From positions 1-47,243 of the forward strand of contig JAJZXP010000174.1 in assembly GCA_021806345.1 (NCBI GenBank): a DNA stretch of 47,243 nucleotides, written 5' to 3'. This stretch comes from Thermoplasmata archaeon (GTDB taxonomy: Archaea > Thermoplasmatota > Thermoplasmata > Thermoplasmatales > Thermoplasmataceae). The position numbers were made by a program, and so were the translations under genes. Below are positions 1,416-47,243 of the stretch, piece by piece (position 1 is the first letter of the stretch; the number at the start of each line of letters is the position of its first letter). The notes beneath the pieces were generated by a model. It saw only the letters and a program-made list of their open reading frames with translations. It did not search any database and was not told the origin of the DNA.

Positions 1416-2906
1416 CTAACTTTCCAAATTAACGGTATTCTTAGTGGACTCTGTTAAACTCTTTCCCATCTGATCTCTTCTCCTTCCCAGCATCTCTTTT
1501 CCTGCAGCTGCAAATATAGCTGCAATTAGGAATGTGATTGCACCAATTACAAAGGCCCAATAGAAGGCAGTGGAATCAGGAAATGAAAATACCTGTCCTC
1601 TGGTTGTTATTGACACAGAGTAGAGTGAGAGAACTGCACCTGCAATTGGTGACCCTATGCTACTTCCCAAGAACCTGAAGGTGCTGTTCATAGAAACTGC
1701 CAGTCCCATATTGCTTGGTTCTACAGAAAGTACAAGCAGGTTTATGAGGGTGGCATTCATAATTGCCATCCCTGCTCCAATCACAAATTCCCACATAATT
1801 GTCTCATAGTATGTGGGGGAGATGGCAAGAAGGAAAAATCCCACCGCACTGATTATAGCACCAAGTGCTGAAAGAGGTTTTATTCCCACCCTTGTGATCA
1901 CTTTTCCAGTAATTATGGAAAATACAATCATACCGATTGCAAATGATACCAGTGAAATACCCGTATCAAGAATGCTAAGACCAAATCCGTAGGGTTTTGG
2001 GGTTTCAAACTTGTAAGAAAGTGCCTGCAGCGACAGGTACATACCGATGCCTGCTATTGTAAGAGTTAAATTGGAAACTATAACATTTCTCTTCCTGAGC
2101 AAATTTAGGTCAAATATTGCTTCGCCACCCTTTTTATGATATCTTGTCTCGTAGACAAACATTGGAACGAATAATACCAAACCAACGATCAAAACACTCA
2201 AAAATAGAGAAGATGTCCATCCCCATAGGGATCCTTCTGACAGTGCCAGAACAACCAGTGCTAATGGAACGGCAAGAGAAATAGCTCCAACGAAATCGAC
2301 CTTTGTGTTGGGTTTCCTGTATCTTGATTCTCGTACCTTAAAGGCCACAAGCAAAGCCAGTGCAAGAATAAATGGAATTGCAGTATGGTAGGTCATTCTC
2401 CACCCAAAATCATTGGAAATAAAAGAACCAAGAGGTAGACTGATTGCAAATCCAGCTCCAAACATTCCACTTATCAGAGACTGGGCTTTTGGAACCATCT
2501 CCTTAGGAAACTCTTCCCTGATTAGTGACATTCCGAGTGGCATTATTGTCAAGCCAATTCCCTGTATTGCTCTTGAAGCTACCATAAATGAGAAAGATGG
2601 GGAAAAGCCTGTAACTGAAACAGCACACGCATAGATTAGCATTACTATTGTCATCATTTTCTTCTTGCCGTATATATCCCCTAGTTTTCCAATGATCGGA
2701 CTTGCTGCAACTCCAGTTATCAGATACGTTGATAGCACAAGACTTACCTGGTCAACAGTAACATTAAATCCCTGTGCTATTGACGGGAGTGATGGTGTTA
2801 GCATTCCTTCCACGTACATCACTGACACGATGATCATTGCCAGCAAGACCATTACAAAATTAGCATATTTTTTATCATAAATTTCAACATTATTTTCCAC
2901 GTTCAT
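1416..2906 (-). CDS. MFS multidrug efflux transporter, DHA2-like (14 TM)
   Basis: A 496-residue major facilitator protein with about 14 hydrophobic segments. The family motif A is clear at residues 73-83 (GKLGDIYGKKK), and the helix 4-5 region has SRAIQGIGLTIMPLGMSLI. This length and topology fit the DHA2 drug:H+ antiporters, which export hydrophobic compounds using the proton gradient. Its start overlaps the stop of the upstream marR-family gene by four bases (ATGA), so the two are translationally coupled and very probably one transcript, a classic regulator plus efflux pump pair. The substrate is unknown. Confidence 0.88.
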   Translation of the reverse strand: MNVENNVEIYDKKYANFVMVLLAMIIVSVMYVEGMLTPSLPSIAQGFNVTVDQVSLVLSTYLITGVAASPIIGKLGDIYGKKKMMTIVMLIYACAVSVTGFSPSFSFMVASRAIQGIGLTIMPLGMSLIREEFPKEMVPKAQSLISGMFGAGFAISLPLGSFISNDFGWRMTYHTAIPFILALALLVAFKVRESRYRKPNTKVDFVGAISLAVPLALVVLALSEGSLWGWTSSLFLSVLIVGLVLFVPMFVYETRYHKKGGEAIFDLNLLRKRNVIVSNLTLTIAGIGMYLSLQALSYKFETPKPYGFGLSILDTGISLVSFAIGMIVFSIITGKVITRVGIKPLSALGAIISAVGFFLLAISPTYYETIMWEFVIGAGMAIMNATLINLLVLSVEPSNMGLAVSMNSTFRFLGSSIGSPIAGAVLSLYSVSITTRGQVFSFPDSTAFYWAFVIGAITFLIAAIFAAAGKEMLGRRRDQMGKSLTESTKNTVNLES

Positions 2907-3334
2907 TCAACCTCTAAATTTTCGGTTATACAACTTGATAGTTTATTCAAAGTTTTTACAATATTTTTTTGTGTCAATTCGTCTATTTCATTAATTGATT
3001 CCCTAAGTTTTTCATCGATTAACTCAAATCTTTTGAATAGTTCTTTTCCCGCCTCGTCTATTGTAACTTTCACGACCCTTCTATCTTCCGTTCCAAGTTC
3101 TCTCTTCATAAGACCTCTTTGTTCCAACACATCTACAACATGTGTAATGGTAGGTTTGGAAAGTCCAAGAATATTTGCAAATTCCGATAGTTTAACTGGA
3201 CCGGTTTTCATGACGTATAAGAGGACAAATAGCTCAGCATAAGAAAGGTTAGCCTTTCTCATCTGCTTTTCCCTATAGTGCATCATATTGAAAGAAAAAT
3301 TCTTCAGGGCATCAATAACTTCTTCTAATGACAC
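2903..3334 (-). CDS. MarR-family transcriptional regulator
   Basis: A 143-residue winged-helix protein. Residues about 30-100 have the MarR layout: a helix-turn-helix (KLSEFANILGLSKPTITHVVDVLEQRGL) followed by the wing (KRELGTEDRRVVKVTIDEAGKEL), where the D-R-R motif in the wing is diagnostic. Long flanking helices would form the dimer interface. The start is a GTG; no in-frame ATG exists upstream. It is the first gene of a two-gene operon with an MFS pump, so it most likely represses that pump and itself, released by a small hydrophobic or phenolic ligand. Inverted repeats lie just upstream. Confidence 0.9.
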   Translation of the reverse strand: MSLEEVIDALKNFSFNMMHYREKQMRKANLSYAELFVLLYVMKTGPVKLSEFANILGLSKPTITHVVDVLEQRGLMKRELGTEDRRVVKVTIDEAGKELFKRFELIDEKLRESINEIDELTQKNIVKTLNKLSSCITENLEVE

Positions 3335-12398: not shown

Positions 12399-13331
12399 AT
12401 GGATACAACTATCATGGATGGAAAAATAAATCTGGGTTGCCAGATAGCAATAAAAATTGAAGATTCGATGCTGTCGCTGTTAAGGGGTGATACCAAAATC
12501 AGGCAAGCATACATATACTGCGAATCAGGAAAATTGTTTCTCACTGTATTTTTCCCCTTAAATGACATTAACTCAATGGAAAGGTCTCTGATTAAAAGAT
12601 ACAGTAACACTTTAATTTCGAAGGAAATGCTGAGCATCAGCCAAGAATTAAGTTCATCCTCAAATTACGGGGTTCTGACCGAATTGTTAAATGCAACATC
12701 CGTAATAGTTTCCGGAACATTTCTTGAAGGAAATGAACTCAACATGGTATTCAGATTTCATAAAAATTTTCAGGATAATATAATGAATATTTTGGCGACC
12801 GCCAACGAAAGTAACCAGAATTTTAGGATTGTTAAAATAAAGCGAACTCTAAACTTTAGGGAACGAATGGATAAGCTAAACAATAAAATTCCATTGAAAG
12901 TATTGCAGATTTCTTACAAAATGTCTGCTGGCAGTCGTTTAAGTCTGGTGGCATCGGTGGGTGGAAAATTTATAACTGAGGTAGAAGGAAGGAGTTTCAC
13001 AGAGGAGGGTGTGAGATGTGTACTATTCTCAGAGAAAAAACTCAATTTCGATTTTGTGCAGGAAATTTCTAGCGATGAGAGGATTTATGAATTCAAGTAC
13101 TTTGGAGTGACATTCGAGAAAAAGAGGAACGAAGTCAACAAACTGAGAATACCCAGGACAGCGTTACTGGTACACACATTAAAGGATCGAGCTTATATAA
13201 CATCGTTTTTTCCCGCTGAAGAAAGCGACTCTTTTTCACAAGTGATTGCTCGAATTAATAATTCTGAGGAAGCGGGAGTGCGATTTGAAATCTTTTCCCC
13301 TTTAAATGGAGATGTATGGAAATGGATATGA
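12399..13331 (+). CDS. Unrecognised protein, tandem paralogue 2 of 3
   Basis: A 310-residue paralogue of the genes on either side. It begins 31 bases after the first copy, with a purine-rich ribosome site (AAAGGGAGA) before the ATG. Conserved landmarks are MDTTIMDGKINLGC at the N-terminus, SVIVSGTFLEGNELNMVFRF in the middle, RIPRTALLVHTLKDRAY near residue 247 and a final GDVWKWI. Overall identity with the other copies looks low outside these blocks, so the duplications are old and each copy has probably specialised. It is predicted to be cytoplasmic and soluble. Function is unknown. Confidence 0.75.
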   Translation: MDTTIMDGKINLGCQIAIKIEDSMLSLLRGDTKIRQAYIYCESGKLFLTVFFPLNDINSMERSLIKRYSNTLISKEMLSISQELSSSSNYGVLTELLNATSVIVSGTFLEGNELNMVFRFHKNFQDNIMNILATANESNQNFRIVKIKRTLNFRERMDKLNNKIPLKVLQISYKMSAGSRLSLVASVGGKFITEVEGRSFTEEGVRCVLFSEKKLNFDFVQEISSDERIYEFKYFGVTFEKKRNEVNKLRIPRTALLVHTLKDRAYITSFFPAEESDSFSQVIARINNSEEAGVRFEIFSPLNGDVWKWI

Positions 13332-18617: not shown

Positions 18618-18628
18618 ATATTTATACA
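18618..18628 (+). promoter_or_regulatory. TATA box of the CARF-PIN gene
   Basis: ATATTTATACA is centred 26 bases before the ATG, with purines just upstream (CCCAAA) in the BRE position. It predicts a leaderless single-gene transcript. Confidence 0.6.
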
Positions 18629-18648: not shown

Positions 18649-20019
18649 ATGATCAAAAAGGGAATTTTTTTAATTGGAACATCAAATGACATAATGGAAT
18701 CATCTTTTTCTTCAATACTGAGGGTTTTGGAGTCATTTCAAATAAATCAGGTAGTATTGCTGTACTCTTCATTTGCAAAAAGATATGCAGAAAAACTTAA
18801 GACAACTCTTGAGAAATTGTTTCCTAACGGCACATTAAGCGTTGGAATCGAAGAAATAAATGAAATTAGTTACAGAAATCAATTTGATGCTGCTTTTGAT
18901 GAAGAGACTCTGCTATGTCCCACTTCCGGTTCCAGATTCTATACAATTGTATCAACAGATATTGGAAAAGCTAAAGGGGCAACACTTGTCCACGTTATGT
19001 TTCCCTATGGTCCATGGAGGGAATTGTATTACCCGTTTGTACCAAGATTTCTACAACAGATAGTCGTCTTATCTGGAGACACAAAACCTCTAAGTGAGAT
19101 TAAGGATATTTTTGATGAGAATAATTCGAGGCTGCTTGAAGAGGACTGGAAGGACAAAATCAAAGGGAAGAATATAACAAAAAGAGTTGGGATGAGTTCA
19201 TTCAGATATAATAAACTGAACAAGAAAAATTTTGTTGAAAATGGAGAGGAAAATATTTTCGATTTGGGAATTGACAAGTACGGAGAAATAATATCAAATG
19301 ATACATCTAACACAATAATAAACCTCAGAATTCTTGACCAGTTTAAAAAGTATAATTTGTCAATATCAATCAATGACGAAAACAGGACAGATAGAGATTT
19401 TCCAAATTCAACAGAATTCAGAAAAAATTTTATTTCAACCACGTTCGGAATAAAGGGGATAAATATTTCAGATGACAGCAAACTGTCACCCTTTGATATT
19501 TTTGGCATCCTGGGATACTTGGATATAGACTGCATAAGTTTGGGAAATCAGAGAAATTCATTAGAAGAAATTTCGGAACAGTCAAAGGGAATTATTATTG
19601 ATACGAACATGATCTATCTGGGGATAAATCTCTACAAAGAAGCGAAAATCATGGTTCCTTACTGTGCGTATATAGAAATAGCGAATAAAAGAACAGAAAT
19701 GATGAAGGGTCATAAAGACGAGTTAACGCATATATTTGCAGATATACTCTGGGACGCTTTGAATGAATTGCTGGAATCAAATCCAATTGTCCCAACCGAG
19801 ACATTTTTCTGTGACGGCGTGATTCCAATGATGGATCCCTTAATTATAAGAAATTGCACACTTTTGACGAACGACGAGGGAGCTTATCAGCATTGGATGG
19901 GAATATTTTCTGATTGGGTGAGGGTTGCAAAAGCCAAAATAAGCAAGACGAGCAGTGTGGCTAAGGTTGTATTCGCATTGTTTCTTACATCGTCTGTGCT
20001 GCAGGAAGGAATAAGTTAA
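18649..20019 (+). CDS. Putative CARF-domain protein with C-terminal PIN nuclease domain
   Basis: A 456-residue protein. The N-terminal about 150 residues look like a CARF/Rossmann domain: FLIGTSND (residues 7-14) in the first strand-loop, VVLLYSS in the second strand, and TSGSR (about 93-97) followed by a helix, where CARF proteins have their T-[SG]-G-[ST] ligand loop. Residues about 310-430 look like a PIN RNase: Asp318 in IIIDTNMIYLGI, Glu343 in IEIANK, Asp396 in MMDPLIIRNCT and Asp409 in LLTNDEGAY, the four acidic positions of the family in the right order. CARF domains bind cyclic oligoadenylates made by type III CRISPR systems. No cas gene or array is in the window. The middle 150 residues are unassigned. 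Confidence 0.6.
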   Translation: MIKKGIFLIGTSNDIMESSFSSILRVLESFQINQVVLLYSSFAKRYAEKLKTTLEKLFPNGTLSVGIEEINEISYRNQFDAAFDEETLLCPTSGSRFYTIVSTDIGKAKGATLVHVMFPYGPWRELYYPFVPRFLQQIVVLSGDTKPLSEIKDIFDENNSRLLEEDWKDKIKGKNITKRVGMSSFRYNKLNKKNFVENGEENIFDLGIDKYGEIISNDTSNTIINLRILDQFKKYNLSISINDENRTDRDFPNSTEFRKNFISTTFGIKGINISDDSKLSPFDIFGILGYLDIDCISLGNQRNSLEEISEQSKGIIIDTNMIYLGINLYKEAKIMVPYCAYIEIANKRTEMMKGHKDELTHIFADILWDALNELLESNPIVPTETFFCDGVIPMMDPLIIRNCTLLTNDEGAYQHWMGIFSDWVRVAKAKISKTSSVAKVVFALFLTSSVLQEGIS

Positions 20020-20408
20020 TCAGGCGGACTGTTTGAATCCGATTGCCCTGTTTCACTTTTTTTTCCGATGTTAATGAATTCATAAACACTTGAAAATAAC
20101 AAAGCTGAAAATGCGCAAATCAATCCAGATATCAGTGGATACATAAACAGGACAAGAAACTGAGGGAGTCCTATTATGGATGAAATTATTCCCGCAATTT
20201 TAAGGTCACCGGTAAGGCTGTACATAAGGTATACAGACAGAAATGATCCAAACCCCTCCAGGAATCCGAAAATAAATGCGAATCTTTTCCTTAACATCAG
20301 TAAAAGAAAGCCCGAAATTATCAGATAATAAGCGTCTTTCAGGAAAAAAGCAATGAGGATTGATAAAGGAATAGACAGTAAAGACAGATAGAATACTCTA
20401 CGGTTCAT
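20016..20408 (-). CDS. Small membrane protein (4 TM), unknown function
   Basis: About 130 residues from the ATG at 20408, two codons after an in-frame TTG at 20414. Four hydrophobic segments are evident, with a charged Ser/Asp-rich tail (KKSETGQSDSNSPPD). The start overlaps the end of the penicillin acylase gene by 11 bases, so it is translated from the same message. Its stop codon overlaps the convergent CARF-PIN stop. I do not recognise the family; the coupling suggests a role with the acylase or in its export, but that is inference only. Confidence 0.65.
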   Translation of the reverse strand: MNRRVFYLSLLSIPLSILIAFFLKDAYYLIISGFLLLMLRKRFAFIFGFLEGFGSFLSVYLMYSLTGDLKIAGIISSIIGLPQFLVLFMYPLISGLICAFSALLFSSVYEFINIGKKSETGQSDSNSPPD

Positions 20409-22893
20409 ATTCAATAGTCACCTCCGTTGGAAGTCCCTGCATCGGATAATATTGATGGTTTAACCAGTGACTCAACTGATTATCAAACCAGTAGCTTTCA
20501 ACATTCTCGCTAGGGCCCCCTGGGAATACCCCGTAGAATGTTCCCGTGGCCGGACTTGCAATTGTTCGGAGAGAAGATCCGATTGACACGCAGGGTAAGG
20601 GATACTCTAATAACCTTGGCACTGATCCAACGCTGACTGTATGTCTACCTCCCCAAATTGATATTGGGCCAATTCCCAGTGCTGGAATACCTGTAAGACT
20701 AGCAATTTCAACCTTGTGGACACTCCCCCAGGCCCAGTTACTGACATTTCCTAATTTCGAATCCATAAAATTAATCGCGATTACAAAAGCTTCTTGCATC
20801 GTTTTACTGAAATTGCCATTAAACCATGAGGATGTTGGATCTTCCTTAGCCATTTCAATAGCAGTATTTACATAAACACATGGCGTGAACTGATAAATTC
20901 CATTTTCTTTCAAAACTTTATCATAAGTCAAATTATAGAACGCGGCTGTTACATATTGGTATACGGTTGGATTCTCCATGCCTGGCCAGAATGTGTAATT
21001 CCATGTTTCCAGTAATTTTAGGGCCATTTTCTGAGAATAGTTAAGATTCATGGAACCAGTGATGGCCTTCACTATTAACGGATTATACTGGGTGGCCCAG
21101 TAGTCAGAAACATTCGATTGAAGTGCCATCATGTCTTTAAAATTCATTTTTGTATGATTCTGCAGGAAATGATCTATTGTCTTCGCTCTGCCACCTGTGG
21201 CCCAGTAAGAACCTATGAATGGATATGGATAGTTCTTCCCAACTGTTGGCTGATTTGGGGCAAACATGTATCCCCTTGACGGGTTTACTGCCTGTGGGAG
21301 ATACTTAAACGGAACAAATCCTGTTTCCCTGTATTTTGAGTTTGATCCATTTAAAAGAGATACCGAACCTACTACCTGCAGGCTCTTACCGTCTGGAAGA
21401 GTTTCATTTATTAAGGGATAGCCACCTGCAGTAATATAACCGGAGTGATGAAGCGAAACTAGTGCGAAATTTTGTGGCGGTGCCGGTCCCCAGTATTTCA
21501 AGGCGTTCAGCATTTGTGAATAGTTATTTGACTGATCAAGCATTATTTCTGCAATCAAATCAGTGCTTGGTTGATTCTCATCCCAGTTCATACTGATCCC
21601 CAGAGTACTGTTCCTTGATATTATAGGACCATTGTTTGTCGAATAAACAGTGTAAGTTCTACCGAGTTGGGTGAAATTGCATGTTGACATGGCAATGTAT
21701 TTTCCATTGTATAAATAGGAATTACCTTTCAGGGATTCCAAAAAGTCATTGGCAGAATTTCCTTCCGGCGTTGTCAAACCAAAAGAAGTATGTTTTGTGT
21801 GGCCTATTAGAATCCCTAGCAATCCTGCAAGACCCCAGCCTGTAACATTAAACGACGGATCAACTAATTGATACTCAATCCAGAGAGAGGGAGCCAGCAG
21901 TGGTAAATGAGGATCATTTGCCAGCATTGGAGAACCATTAGAAGAATAATTGGATGCAATAATCCAACTATTGCTACCAACAGGAGATCCAGTGTTGTGC
22001 GATCCTGGCAGATTGTATGGGTCGGAAATATTCATACATGCTTCTTTCAGCAGTGTGGTTAATGTGCTTAGTTTCTTTGAACTCACACCAGTTGCCCATT
22101 GGGAAAACCAATCCTGGGACCAAACATAGCTGGAAGAAATGCCCTGTTCAGCTAAATTGTAACCATTTACTGTTCCGTCTCCTGGAATCATGGTAACATT
22201 CTCCGTGTAGTAAGGATAATAGGGCCAAATCTGGCTGTAATTTGAATATCCAAGTGAATTTACAAAAATGTCAGATTGAAGTACATTCGTGGAACCTATG
22301 GCAAGTGACCATGCCATATATTGCTGCCATACCAAGCTATCATAAACTGTCCATTTAAATGGTTTAACGCCTAACAGATGAAATCCCAGTATATCAGAAA
22401 CAGAAGCTGAATTATTTATGTAGGCGTTTACACCCTGTGAGTACCAAAGCAAATAATCATAATATTTAGTATAATTATGTTCAATATCAGACTGTAACCT
22501 TTCAGCATTTCGGGTTAATCCTATCAGTCTCATCGTGTAATCTGATTGAAGACCAGAACTTCCAATAAATTTAGATAAGTTTCCAGCAGCAACTGTAGCC
22601 TGAAGTTCCATTTGAAACAGTCTCTGACATGCGCTATAATAACCTTGGGAGTAAAACAGATCGTGATTGTTCTTGGCCTGAATATGAACCATTCCAGACG
22701 AATCTATAGTTAGCGAAACGCTGTTTTCCAGTCCGGGAACTATGTAAGAACCAGATGTAAAGTTATTACTTGAAGAACTTTGAAAAACACCAGTAGAGGG
22801 GTTTAAAATACCCAGAGAAGTGGAAATATATGAAAGACTTCCTACCAGTATGAAAGAAATTACAATAATTACAGCTAAAAACTTCCTTTTCAT
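20398..22893 (-). CDS. Penicillin acylase-family Ntn hydrolase, secreted
   Basis: An 831-residue precursor. The N-terminus (MKRKFLAVIIVISFILVGSL) is a signal peptide or anchor. The linker ends before the family nucleophile: Gly306-Ser307-Asn-Ser-Trp, followed by LANDPHLPLLAPSLWIEYQL-like beta-chain sequence. Ser307 would become the N-terminal nucleophile after autocatalytic cleavage, giving alpha and beta chains. Members hydrolyse amides such as penicillin G, cephalosporins or acyl-homoserine lactones; the natural substrate is unknown. Many Asn-X-Ser/Thr sites fit glycosylation on the cell surface. A TATA-like TGTATATTAA lies at about 22944-22953. Confidence 0.88.
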   Translation of the reverse strand: MKRKFLAVIIVISFILVGSLSYISTSLGILNPSTGVFQSSSSNNFTSGSYIVPGLENSVSLTIDSSGMVHIQAKNNHDLFYSQGYYSACQRLFQMELQATVAAGNLSKFIGSSGLQSDYTMRLIGLTRNAERLQSDIEHNYTKYYDYLLWYSQGVNAYINNSASVSDILGFHLLGVKPFKWTVYDSLVWQQYMAWSLAIGSTNVLQSDIFVNSLGYSNYSQIWPYYPYYTENVTMIPGDGTVNGYNLAEQGISSSYVWSQDWFSQWATGVSSKKLSTLTTLLKEACMNISDPYNLPGSHNTGSPVGSNSWIIASNYSSNGSPMLANDPHLPLLAPSLWIEYQLVDPSFNVTGWGLAGLLGILIGHTKHTSFGLTTPEGNSANDFLESLKGNSYLYNGKYIAMSTCNFTQLGRTYTVYSTNNGPIISRNSTLGISMNWDENQPSTDLIAEIMLDQSNNYSQMLNALKYWGPAPPQNFALVSLHHSGYITAGGYPLINETLPDGKSLQVVGSVSLLNGSNSKYRETGFVPFKYLPQAVNPSRGYMFAPNQPTVGKNYPYPFIGSYWATGGRAKTIDHFLQNHTKMNFKDMMALQSNVSDYWATQYNPLIVKAITGSMNLNYSQKMALKLLETWNYTFWPGMENPTVYQYVTAAFYNLTYDKVLKENGIYQFTPCVYVNTAIEMAKEDPTSSWFNGNFSKTMQEAFVIAINFMDSKLGNVSNWAWGSVHKVEIASLTGIPALGIGPISIWGGRHTVSVGSVPRLLEYPLPCVSIGSSLRTIASPATGTFYGVFPGGPSENVESYWFDNQLSHWLNHQYYPMQGLPTEVTIEYEP

Positions 22894-42634: not shown

Positions 42635-42642
42635 GTTTTTTT
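42635..42642 (+). terminator. T-run terminator after the aromatic operon
   Basis: A run of T residues (AAGTTTTTTTAAATTTT) about 70 bases after the DAHP synthase stop fits a simple archaeal poly-T terminator. It overlaps the end of the convergent Lrp gene. Confidence 0.4.
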
Positions 42643-43102
42643 AAATTTTAATCCTGTTCTGATCATATGCTTTGAGAACTGTTCTGCTGTCTGTTCTCTC
42701 TATCTCCTCTATCTTGGTCAACTCTTCAAGTATGTGGCCGTAGTCCTCCTTGGATTTACTGTATGTTGTCACCAAAAAATCAATATCTCCGAGCAGGAAA
42801 ACCATTGATTCCACCCCCTGTATTTTTTTAATCTTCTCAGCAACTCTGTCAACATACCCAGGTCCATATCTGGCTTTAACAAATGTCACAGTTATGAATC
42901 CATAACCTAACTTTTCGTAATCAAGAACTAATCTTTCCCCTTTAATAAATCCATTTTGTCTAAGCTTTTTAATGCGCCTGCTAATTGTGGAAGTGGATAA
43001 AATACCAGTTTTTCTCTGCAATTCATTAAGGGAGAATCTTGGATTCTCGCCAAGTGCATAAAGTATAAGGGAGTCCAGCCTGTCAATAACATAATTTTGC
43101 AT
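42641..43102 (-). CDS. Lrp/AsnC-family transcriptional regulator
   Basis: A 153-residue regulator. The N-terminal winged helix is in LDSLILYALGENPRFSLNEL through STSTISRRIKKLRQNGFI, and the C-terminal half is the RAM (ligand-binding) beta-alpha-beta domain (GYGFITVTFVKARY, VFLLGDIDFLVTTY). Such proteins form octamers and respond to amino acids. It is divergent from the aminotransferase-permease operon, which it probably controls in response to the transported amino acid. Confidence 0.88.
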   Translation of the reverse strand: MQNYVIDRLDSLILYALGENPRFSLNELQRKTGILSTSTISRRIKKLRQNGFIKGERLVLDYEKLGYGFITVTFVKARYGPGYVDRVAEKIKKIQGVESMVFLLGDIDFLVTTYSKSKEDYGHILEELTKIEEIERTDSRTVLKAYDQNRIKI

Positions 43103-46038: not shown

Positions 46039-47243
46039 TCAAATGTTGTTCCTAAAATGGTTCAGATCAAAGATGACAAATTTCCACGCTGGGATAATGT
46101 TGATGTAATGTCCATTGATTTGAAGGGAATTTTCTTGGCTCTTTGTGATTATTAATAGATTATCGATCCCCAGGTCATCTGACACCTTCATCAGTCCTTT
46201 TATTTCTCTCCTCTCGTTTCCATCATTTAACACATAACATACCTGAATAGCAAAGTTCTGATCAGGCAAAACAAAATCCACTTCAGTTTTATCGACCTTC
46301 CTGTAATAGTAGAAATCATATTGATTTCGTTTTAAATGCACTGCAACCATATTCTCAAGCAATCTCCCATTCTTTTCAATAAAATTGTCCGTATAAATCC
46401 GTAACAGACCGTTATCAACGCAGTATAACTTCTTAGGGCTTGAAGGATATGTTTTGATTTTTCTAGAGTACCTCTCGACAATGAAAACCAGATAGGTTTC
46501 GGAAGCGTAAGTGACGTACTTTTTCACAGTTGTCTCGCTTTTTATTCCCAAGGAACGACTGATAGACCTAAATGTAATTTCATTGGAAATATCATTCAAC
46601 AAAAATAAAATCATAGATCTTATTTCAGATAATTTCCTAATTTTGTAGCGACTTACCATATCCTTTTAAATATTGTCGCTAATCAGGGAACTCAGGATTT
46701 CAGTGTTTTTTGAAAGAACTATTTCAGGCATTCCCCCGCTTCTAAAATATTCCTCAAAAGAGACTGTCATTTTTGCAATAGTTCCTGTATCAAAAGAATC
46801 CGTCTCAGGAATTTCTACTTTACTGGCCAATAAAAACTCACGAAAAGAGAATGGGAACAACTCAAAATCCAAGTGCCTTCCCATAAGATGAGTACCCAGT
46901 TCTTTACTTAGCAGGTTGGCGTTAGATCCGGTGATATAAACAGTGTAGTCAGACCTTAACATCCTGTTCACAAAGGATTCCCATCCAACAACATTTTGGA
47001 TTTCATCAAGAAAAAGTGTTCGGCAATTTTCCATGGTTTCAATAAAGCATTCCATCATAAGTTGAAAATCTTCCACCTTAAAATCAAACAATCGCTCATC
47101 GTCAAAATTCAAATAACAGAATCGGTCTTTAAACTTACTTTGCACGAAAAGTTTAAGCATTGTACTCTTGCCAACCCTCCTGAGTCCTTTTATGATAAGA
47201 GCCTTATTTTCTAGTTTCGTAGGAATTCGTTGCAGCAATTCTC
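46039..47243 (-). pseudogene. AAA+ ATPase with DUF4143 domain, broken by an in-frame stop codon; partial
   Basis: The gene runs from beyond the right edge to 46039. The N-terminal part has Walker A GLRRVGKSTMLK, Walker B LFLDEIQNV, sensor TGSNA and FELFPFSFREFL, all typical of archaeal AAA/DUF4143 ATPases. The C-terminal part (MVSRYKIRKLSEIRSM onward, ending near FVIFDLNHF) is DUF4143 with a PD-D/ExK-like VDFVL. The parts are in the same frame, separated only by a TAA at 46668-46666, in SDNI-stop-KDMVSRYKIR, where relatives keep an unbroken D-I-V-x-R-Y. A single substitution explains it. The C-terminal half might still be made from the ATG at 46659, but the ATPase would not be intact. Confidence 0.8.

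Follow-up and report, generated by a model that had tools for sequence, protein, structure and literature searches.

A CARF-PIN fusion gene apart from CRISPR loci in Thermoplasmata, probably descended from a type III effector

A nuclease carrying a CARF domain is usually read as a sign of Cas10 cyclic-oligoadenylate (cOA) signalling, and the question arises of what such a protein does when its gene stands away from any CRISPR locus. Here we report the analysis of a CARF-PIN fusion gene in a 47,243-nucleotide stretch of a Thermoplasmata archaeon genome (contig JAJZXP010000174.1 of assembly GCA_021806345.1; hereafter the window). The original prediction, made from the letters and their translations, had placed the gene on the forward strand at 18649-20019 and named the motifs FLIGTSND and TSGSR and the acidic residues D318, E343, D396 and D409, all of which we recovered at those places in the 456-residue translation. 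We consider it probable, with appreciable doubt, that the product is a ligand-gated RNase that has a type III CRISPR effector as its ancestor and has been kept without Cas10 in the Thermoplasmata lineages seen.

The assignment to a CARF-PIN family is carried by the PADLOC model CARF_m3--CARF_PIN, which matched the protein over residues 9-444 with an E value of 3.6e-47; a second such model gave 3.1e-32, a CARF+PIN model 4.5e-11 and Csx1 a weak 2.7e-4. Since all 14 aligned family members also matched CARF_m3--CARF_PIN, the sequence match is far beyond chance. Searches of Pfam and NCBIfam with the same protein returned no family. Relatives were collected by a protein search (eight proteins, counting the window's own cluster), a profile search that added three, two of them fragments, and a further search that added one; these searches scored the ∼8,000 candidates with most shared words, so that distant relatives may be missed. 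The resulting alignment of 14 sequences, with identity down to 22% and several near-duplicates, has its invariant positions mostly at the two ends: the CARF part holds 21 among 145 residues, the PIN part 19 among 146 and the middle 2 among 165. The four predicted acidic residues are invariant, as are D389, N320, P91, T92, G94 and S95. A family-specific stretch, H115...W123...YPxVPR..Q136, is likewise invariant and may line the ligand site. The middle region (residues 146-310) is 20-26% identical to six relatives, and the earlier remark that it resembles nothing familiar is fair so far.

A single-chain predicted model shows a CARF-type Rossmann fold with two ligand loops, followed after the middle region by a PIN fold along whose elements D318, E343, D396 and D409 occur in the PIN order, which is an order along the chain and not a spatial distance. 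Profile, alignment and model thus all back the predicted fusion. The nearest solved structure is SiRe_0806 of Sulfolobus islandicus (PDB 9jxw, and 9jxx with cyclic tetra-adenylate, cA4), which matches structurally over the whole length: its CARF part is followed by a part (202-365) that aligns with the PIN domain of the window protein. The middle of SiRe_0806 is shorter, its residue 202 onward being aligned with window residues 300-456. The host of SiRe_0806 carries type III-B systems; no literature on this protein was found in the open-licence papers searched. The CARF-HEPN effectors Csx1 and Csm6 also combine a CARF sensor with an RNase, and their CARF domains are among the structural matches, but they carry HEPN where the window protein carries PIN, and the Csx1 profile match is weak, as given above. 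The architecture itself is already known: the PADLOC models (PDLC01983, PDLC01984) describe the same one, two CARF families with PIN were noted in 2014 (PMC4012209), and PIN effectors are named in the 2025 classification (PMC12669027). What sets the present case apart from the PADLOC family as modelled is that its intact members with searched genomes have no detected Cas10, and a discussion of the family being kept without Cas10 was not found in the open-licence literature searched.

A class-wide search of 400 Thermoplasmata genomes found the family in six, five with intact genes and one (G072) with a decayed copy, while a contig scan of genomes gave five loci, including one in G005; intact carriers number six in all. 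Four are metagenome-assembled genomes (MAGs), G003 among them, and two are Ferroplasma-type genomes, namely Ferroplasma acidarmanus Fer1, for which the sequence record is complete, and G039, which we take to be F. acidiphilum, with a single contig of 1,826,943 bases that holds approximately the whole genome. The G039 protein is 94% identical to that of Fer1. Three MAG loci share one layout when compared by eye (RNase Z-like gene, transporter, CARF-PIN, ScpB-like gene), the two Ferroplasma-type loci share another except for a transposase-like ORF (open reading frame) in Fer1, the G003 locus differs from both and the window presents a fourth. The gene is thus stable within lineages and has no fixed partner. 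In the loci read, the flanks hold genes other than those of a type III locus. The frame is open and free of stops in all six carriers and in the window, and the gene is under purifying selection, with whole-gene NG86 dN/dS ratios of 0.11, 0.08 and 0.09 in three MAG pairs and of 0.23 in the Ferroplasma pair.

Searches for Cas10 covered the genomes of the six intact relatives, a set that lies apart from the window's own genome. TIGR02578 had no match in five carriers (G039 lay outside that search), PF22335 matched one of seven genomes, which was G072 and none of the six intact carriers, and TIGR02577 left G072 below the cut-off and gave a 17-position match in G005 at E 0.197, with no credible Cas10 in the intact carriers. 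A Cas10 in the same genome had been proposed as support for the prediction, and by these three profiles the outcome is negative for all six. A dedicated type III effector should be accompanied by Cas10 in nearly every genome.

A search for Cas1 was positive for both Ferroplasma-type genomes and for G072, and negative for all four MAG carriers. The cas loci of Fer1 are of type I-B, in two operons (L022 and L023) whose Cas8b proteins match different models, and two RAMP matches there (E 0.0085 and 0.036) are Cas6. G039 has type I-D with Cas10d, the CRISPR type also given for F. acidiphilum in PMC5473848; no GGDD was found in this Cas10d, and for that reason it was not counted as a cyclase. The Csx1 model matched none of the six intact carriers, only G072. 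SMODS at E 1 matched five of seven genomes and was above the cut-off in two (the carrier G003, and G072); a CBASS-type cyclase in G003 and Fer1 was rejected because tRNA_NucTransf2 and the CCA-adding enzyme C-terminal domain match these ORFs far better, making them CCA-adding enzymes.

A possible link to type III comes from G072, where a decayed copy (L026:4150-4610, minus strand) covers CARF_m3 profile positions 10-200 with two stops; no PIN part was found for it. Some 640 bases separate this remnant from an intact csx1 gene, on the downstream side of the latter, and G072 as a whole has a GGDD Cas10 and two Csx1-model matches. Because the decayed copy adjoins csx1 in a genome of this kind, it suggests that the CARF-PIN family was formerly part of a type III set. 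G072 is also the one genome with a clear CARF-PIN trace among the eight Cas10-positive genomes. A weak CARF_m3 match in another of these, G018 (E 0.0015), was rejected, the ORF being a CARF3 (Csa3-type) protein at E 7.9e-133; in that genome the CARF3 gene and an adjoining, weakly CARF3-like gene occupy L039:14359-15755 (minus strand), ∼8-10 kb from the Cas10 gene. The predicted role as a type III CRISPR ancillary effector is supported only as regards its probable descent. No type III locus lies nearby in the window or in the relatives' flanks that were read, and no credible Cas10 was detected in the six relatives' genomes.

By analogy with SiRe_0806 and with CARF effectors generally, the CARF domain probably dimerises and would bind a small RNA-derived ligand between its two GTSN and PTSGS loops. 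Binding would switch on the C-terminal PIN domain, which would use metal ions coordinated by D318, E343, D396 and D409 to cut RNA, and the cutting may slow or kill the cell. For the predicted activation by cOA, the analogue is the structure of SiRe_0806 with cA4. The ancestor was presumably a SiRe_0806-like type III CRISPR effector of the CARF_m3 kind, and the gene would now act as a one-gene unit in Thermoplasmata genomes without detected cyclase-type Cas10. Since none was detected, the cell would have to produce a cOA-like or RNA-end ligand in some other way, or the signal would have to be made by Cas10 systems that come in on mobile elements or sit in unassembled sequence.

Several observations weigh against this account. 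SiRe_0806 is only 12% identical to the window protein with no sequence-level match, its TM-scores are only 0.35-0.46 with a high root-mean-square deviation, a search of the PDB by sequence, also with a profile, returned no relative, and the PIN-only model in Foldseek found no PIN structure at E 0.001 (best 0.004). As for Cas10, in control searches of 14 known genomes PF22335 was positive in five at E 0.001, including E. coli, and in nine at E 10. Across the class it matched eight of the 400 genomes, and zero overlap between five intact carriers and eight Cas10-positive genomes is as expected under independence (P 0.90). For the four MAGs among the six carriers no completeness is stated, and the genomes of six further relatives known as proteins only (P0003, P0005, P0008, P0009, P0012 and P0016) could hold a Cas10. 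Finally, the CARF part alone of the Ferroplasma pair has a dN/dS of 0.35 (NG86) or 0.54 (YN00), indicating weak constraint on the basis of few changes.

The alternative that survives best is an ordinary type III effector acting in trans, with a Cas10 elsewhere in the window organism making cA4 and the gene merely lying away from the cas locus. In its favour, there is a solved SiRe_0806 structure with cA4, and Thermoplasmata can carry Cas10, as the PF22335 matches and the GGDD protein of G072 indicate, but none of the six intact-relative genomes has a credible Cas10, including the complete Fer1 and the near-whole single-contig G039, and we regard this explanation as unlikely, at about one chance in four. 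We give still less weight, and consider it rather improbable, to a switch of ligand in which the CARF domain senses a host signal such as 2',3'-cyclic phosphate RNA ends and the protein is a tRNA-damage or stress RNase. Its precedent is RtcR, a CARF protein acting outside CRISPR whose CARF domain binds 5' tRNA fragments with a cyclic phosphate according to PMC7790460, although RtcR is a transcription factor with AAA+ and HTH (helix-turn-helix) domains and no nuclease. The invariant signature that the family has of its own and the keeping of the gene in carriers without detected Cas10 fit a switch of this kind, but most of the structurally similar CARF domains either bind cOA or are ring nucleases. 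We consider it very improbable that the gene is a functionless remnant, decaying after the loss of its type III system: the decayed copy in G072, the rarity of the gene (five intact in 400 genomes) and the weakly constrained CARF part of the Ferroplasma pair would suit it, but the frames are free of stops in six carriers and the window, whole-gene dN/dS is low in all four pairs and the catalytic residues are invariant.

The reading as a type III descendant kept without Cas10 has a bolder form, in which the CARF-PIN line of Thermoplasmata has left type III wholly and answers a non-Cas10 second messenger or an RNA-end signal. We hold this form only tentatively, as less than an even chance; if true, it would amount to a CRISPR-free CARF-nuclease pathway in archaea. 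In either form, a CARF effector is intact and under selection in genomes, including the complete Fer1, without detected cyclase-type Cas10. As F. acidarmanus Fer1 is cultivable, whether there are other makers of CARF ligand becomes a testable question with one gene in one cultivable archaeon.

Table 1. Position of the CARF-PIN gene, its upstream element and the parts of its product in the window.
Feature	Position	Strand	Remarks
CARF-PIN gene	18649..20019	+	456 aa, ATG start; PADLOC CARF_m3--CARF_PIN E 3.6e-47
TATA-box-like TTTATA, centre ∼26 nt before ATG	18621..18626	+	consensus match alone; same hexamer listed in sigma-70 scan
CARF domain, residues 1-145	18649..19083	+	
CARF loop 1, FLIGTSND, residues 7-14	18667..18690	+	G10 invariant; S12 replaced by P in 2/14
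CARF loop 2, TSGSR, residues 92-96	18922..18936	+	P91, T92, G94, S95 invariant 14/14; R96 variable
Family signature H115...W123...YPxVPR..Q136, in and after strand 112-116 of model	18991..19056	+	alignment and model
Variable middle, residues 146-310: helices, strand meander, helices	19084..19578	+	predicted model
PIN domain, residues 311-456	19579..20016	+	
D318, PIN acidic residue 1 (DTN)	19600..19602	+	invariant 14/14
E343, PIN acidic residue 2	19675..19677	+	invariant 14/14
D389, additional acidic residue, not among the four originally predicted	19813..19815	+	invariant 14/14
D396, PIN acidic residue 3 (DP)	19834..19836	+	invariant 14/14
D409, PIN acidic residue 4	19873..19875	+	invariant 14/14

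Within the window the gene is single and stands alone, as had been predicted. PADLOC was run on 42 of the 63 other ORFs of at least 90 residues, the remainder mostly overlapping longer ORFs, and these 42 included neither a further CARF domain nor any cas gene of the effector or adaptation kind. Given that no exact 20-mer is repeated and that TRF (Tandem Repeats Finder) reported no array, the window has no CRISPR array. Partial Csa3/CasR/CARF3 matches in two short ORFs (2903-3334 and 42641-43102) were rejected as a second CARF or Csa3 gene, covering only profile positions from 120 upwards in the C-terminal part, which we take to be the HTH part of these models. None of the further defence-model matches (PDC-S01, mad3, mad8, DndA, SspA, AriA and others) is a cas gene. 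A leaderless archaeal transcript, also predicted, is plausible because of the TATA-box-like hexamer (Table 1).

A Pfam scan of ten window ORFs, including the nearest neighbours, gave an aldo/keto reductase, an epimerase, two glycosyltransferases, a penicillin amidase, an aminotransferase and a small ORF without a family, among others. The penicillin amidase-family gene and a small ORF (20016-22893, minus strand) form a pair that is present too in genomes G064, G191 and G381, with identities of 74-75% for the acylase and 47-50% for the small ORF. In these genomes CARF_m3--CARF_PIN gave weak PIN-range matches only (E 8e-4 to 0.0034); the pair is followed by a 1205-aa ORF in G064 and G381, and the G191 contig stops immediately beyond it. 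A clean empty site could not be shown, because the window's flanks are absent there apart from the pair and scattered weaker matches. Nor was a mobile-element origin upheld: no relative was found in viral contigs and no match in plasmids or phages, and the GC content of the gene (0.353, against 0.378 for the window) is inside the spread.

Elsewhere in the window, two adjacent ORFs of 206 and 190 aa (46039-47238, minus strand) correspond to the second and first half of PADLOC PDC-S01 and appear to be a broken gene. One ORF matched AAA_14, and three matched the Ta1207 family, one of them at 12399-13328 (plus strand).
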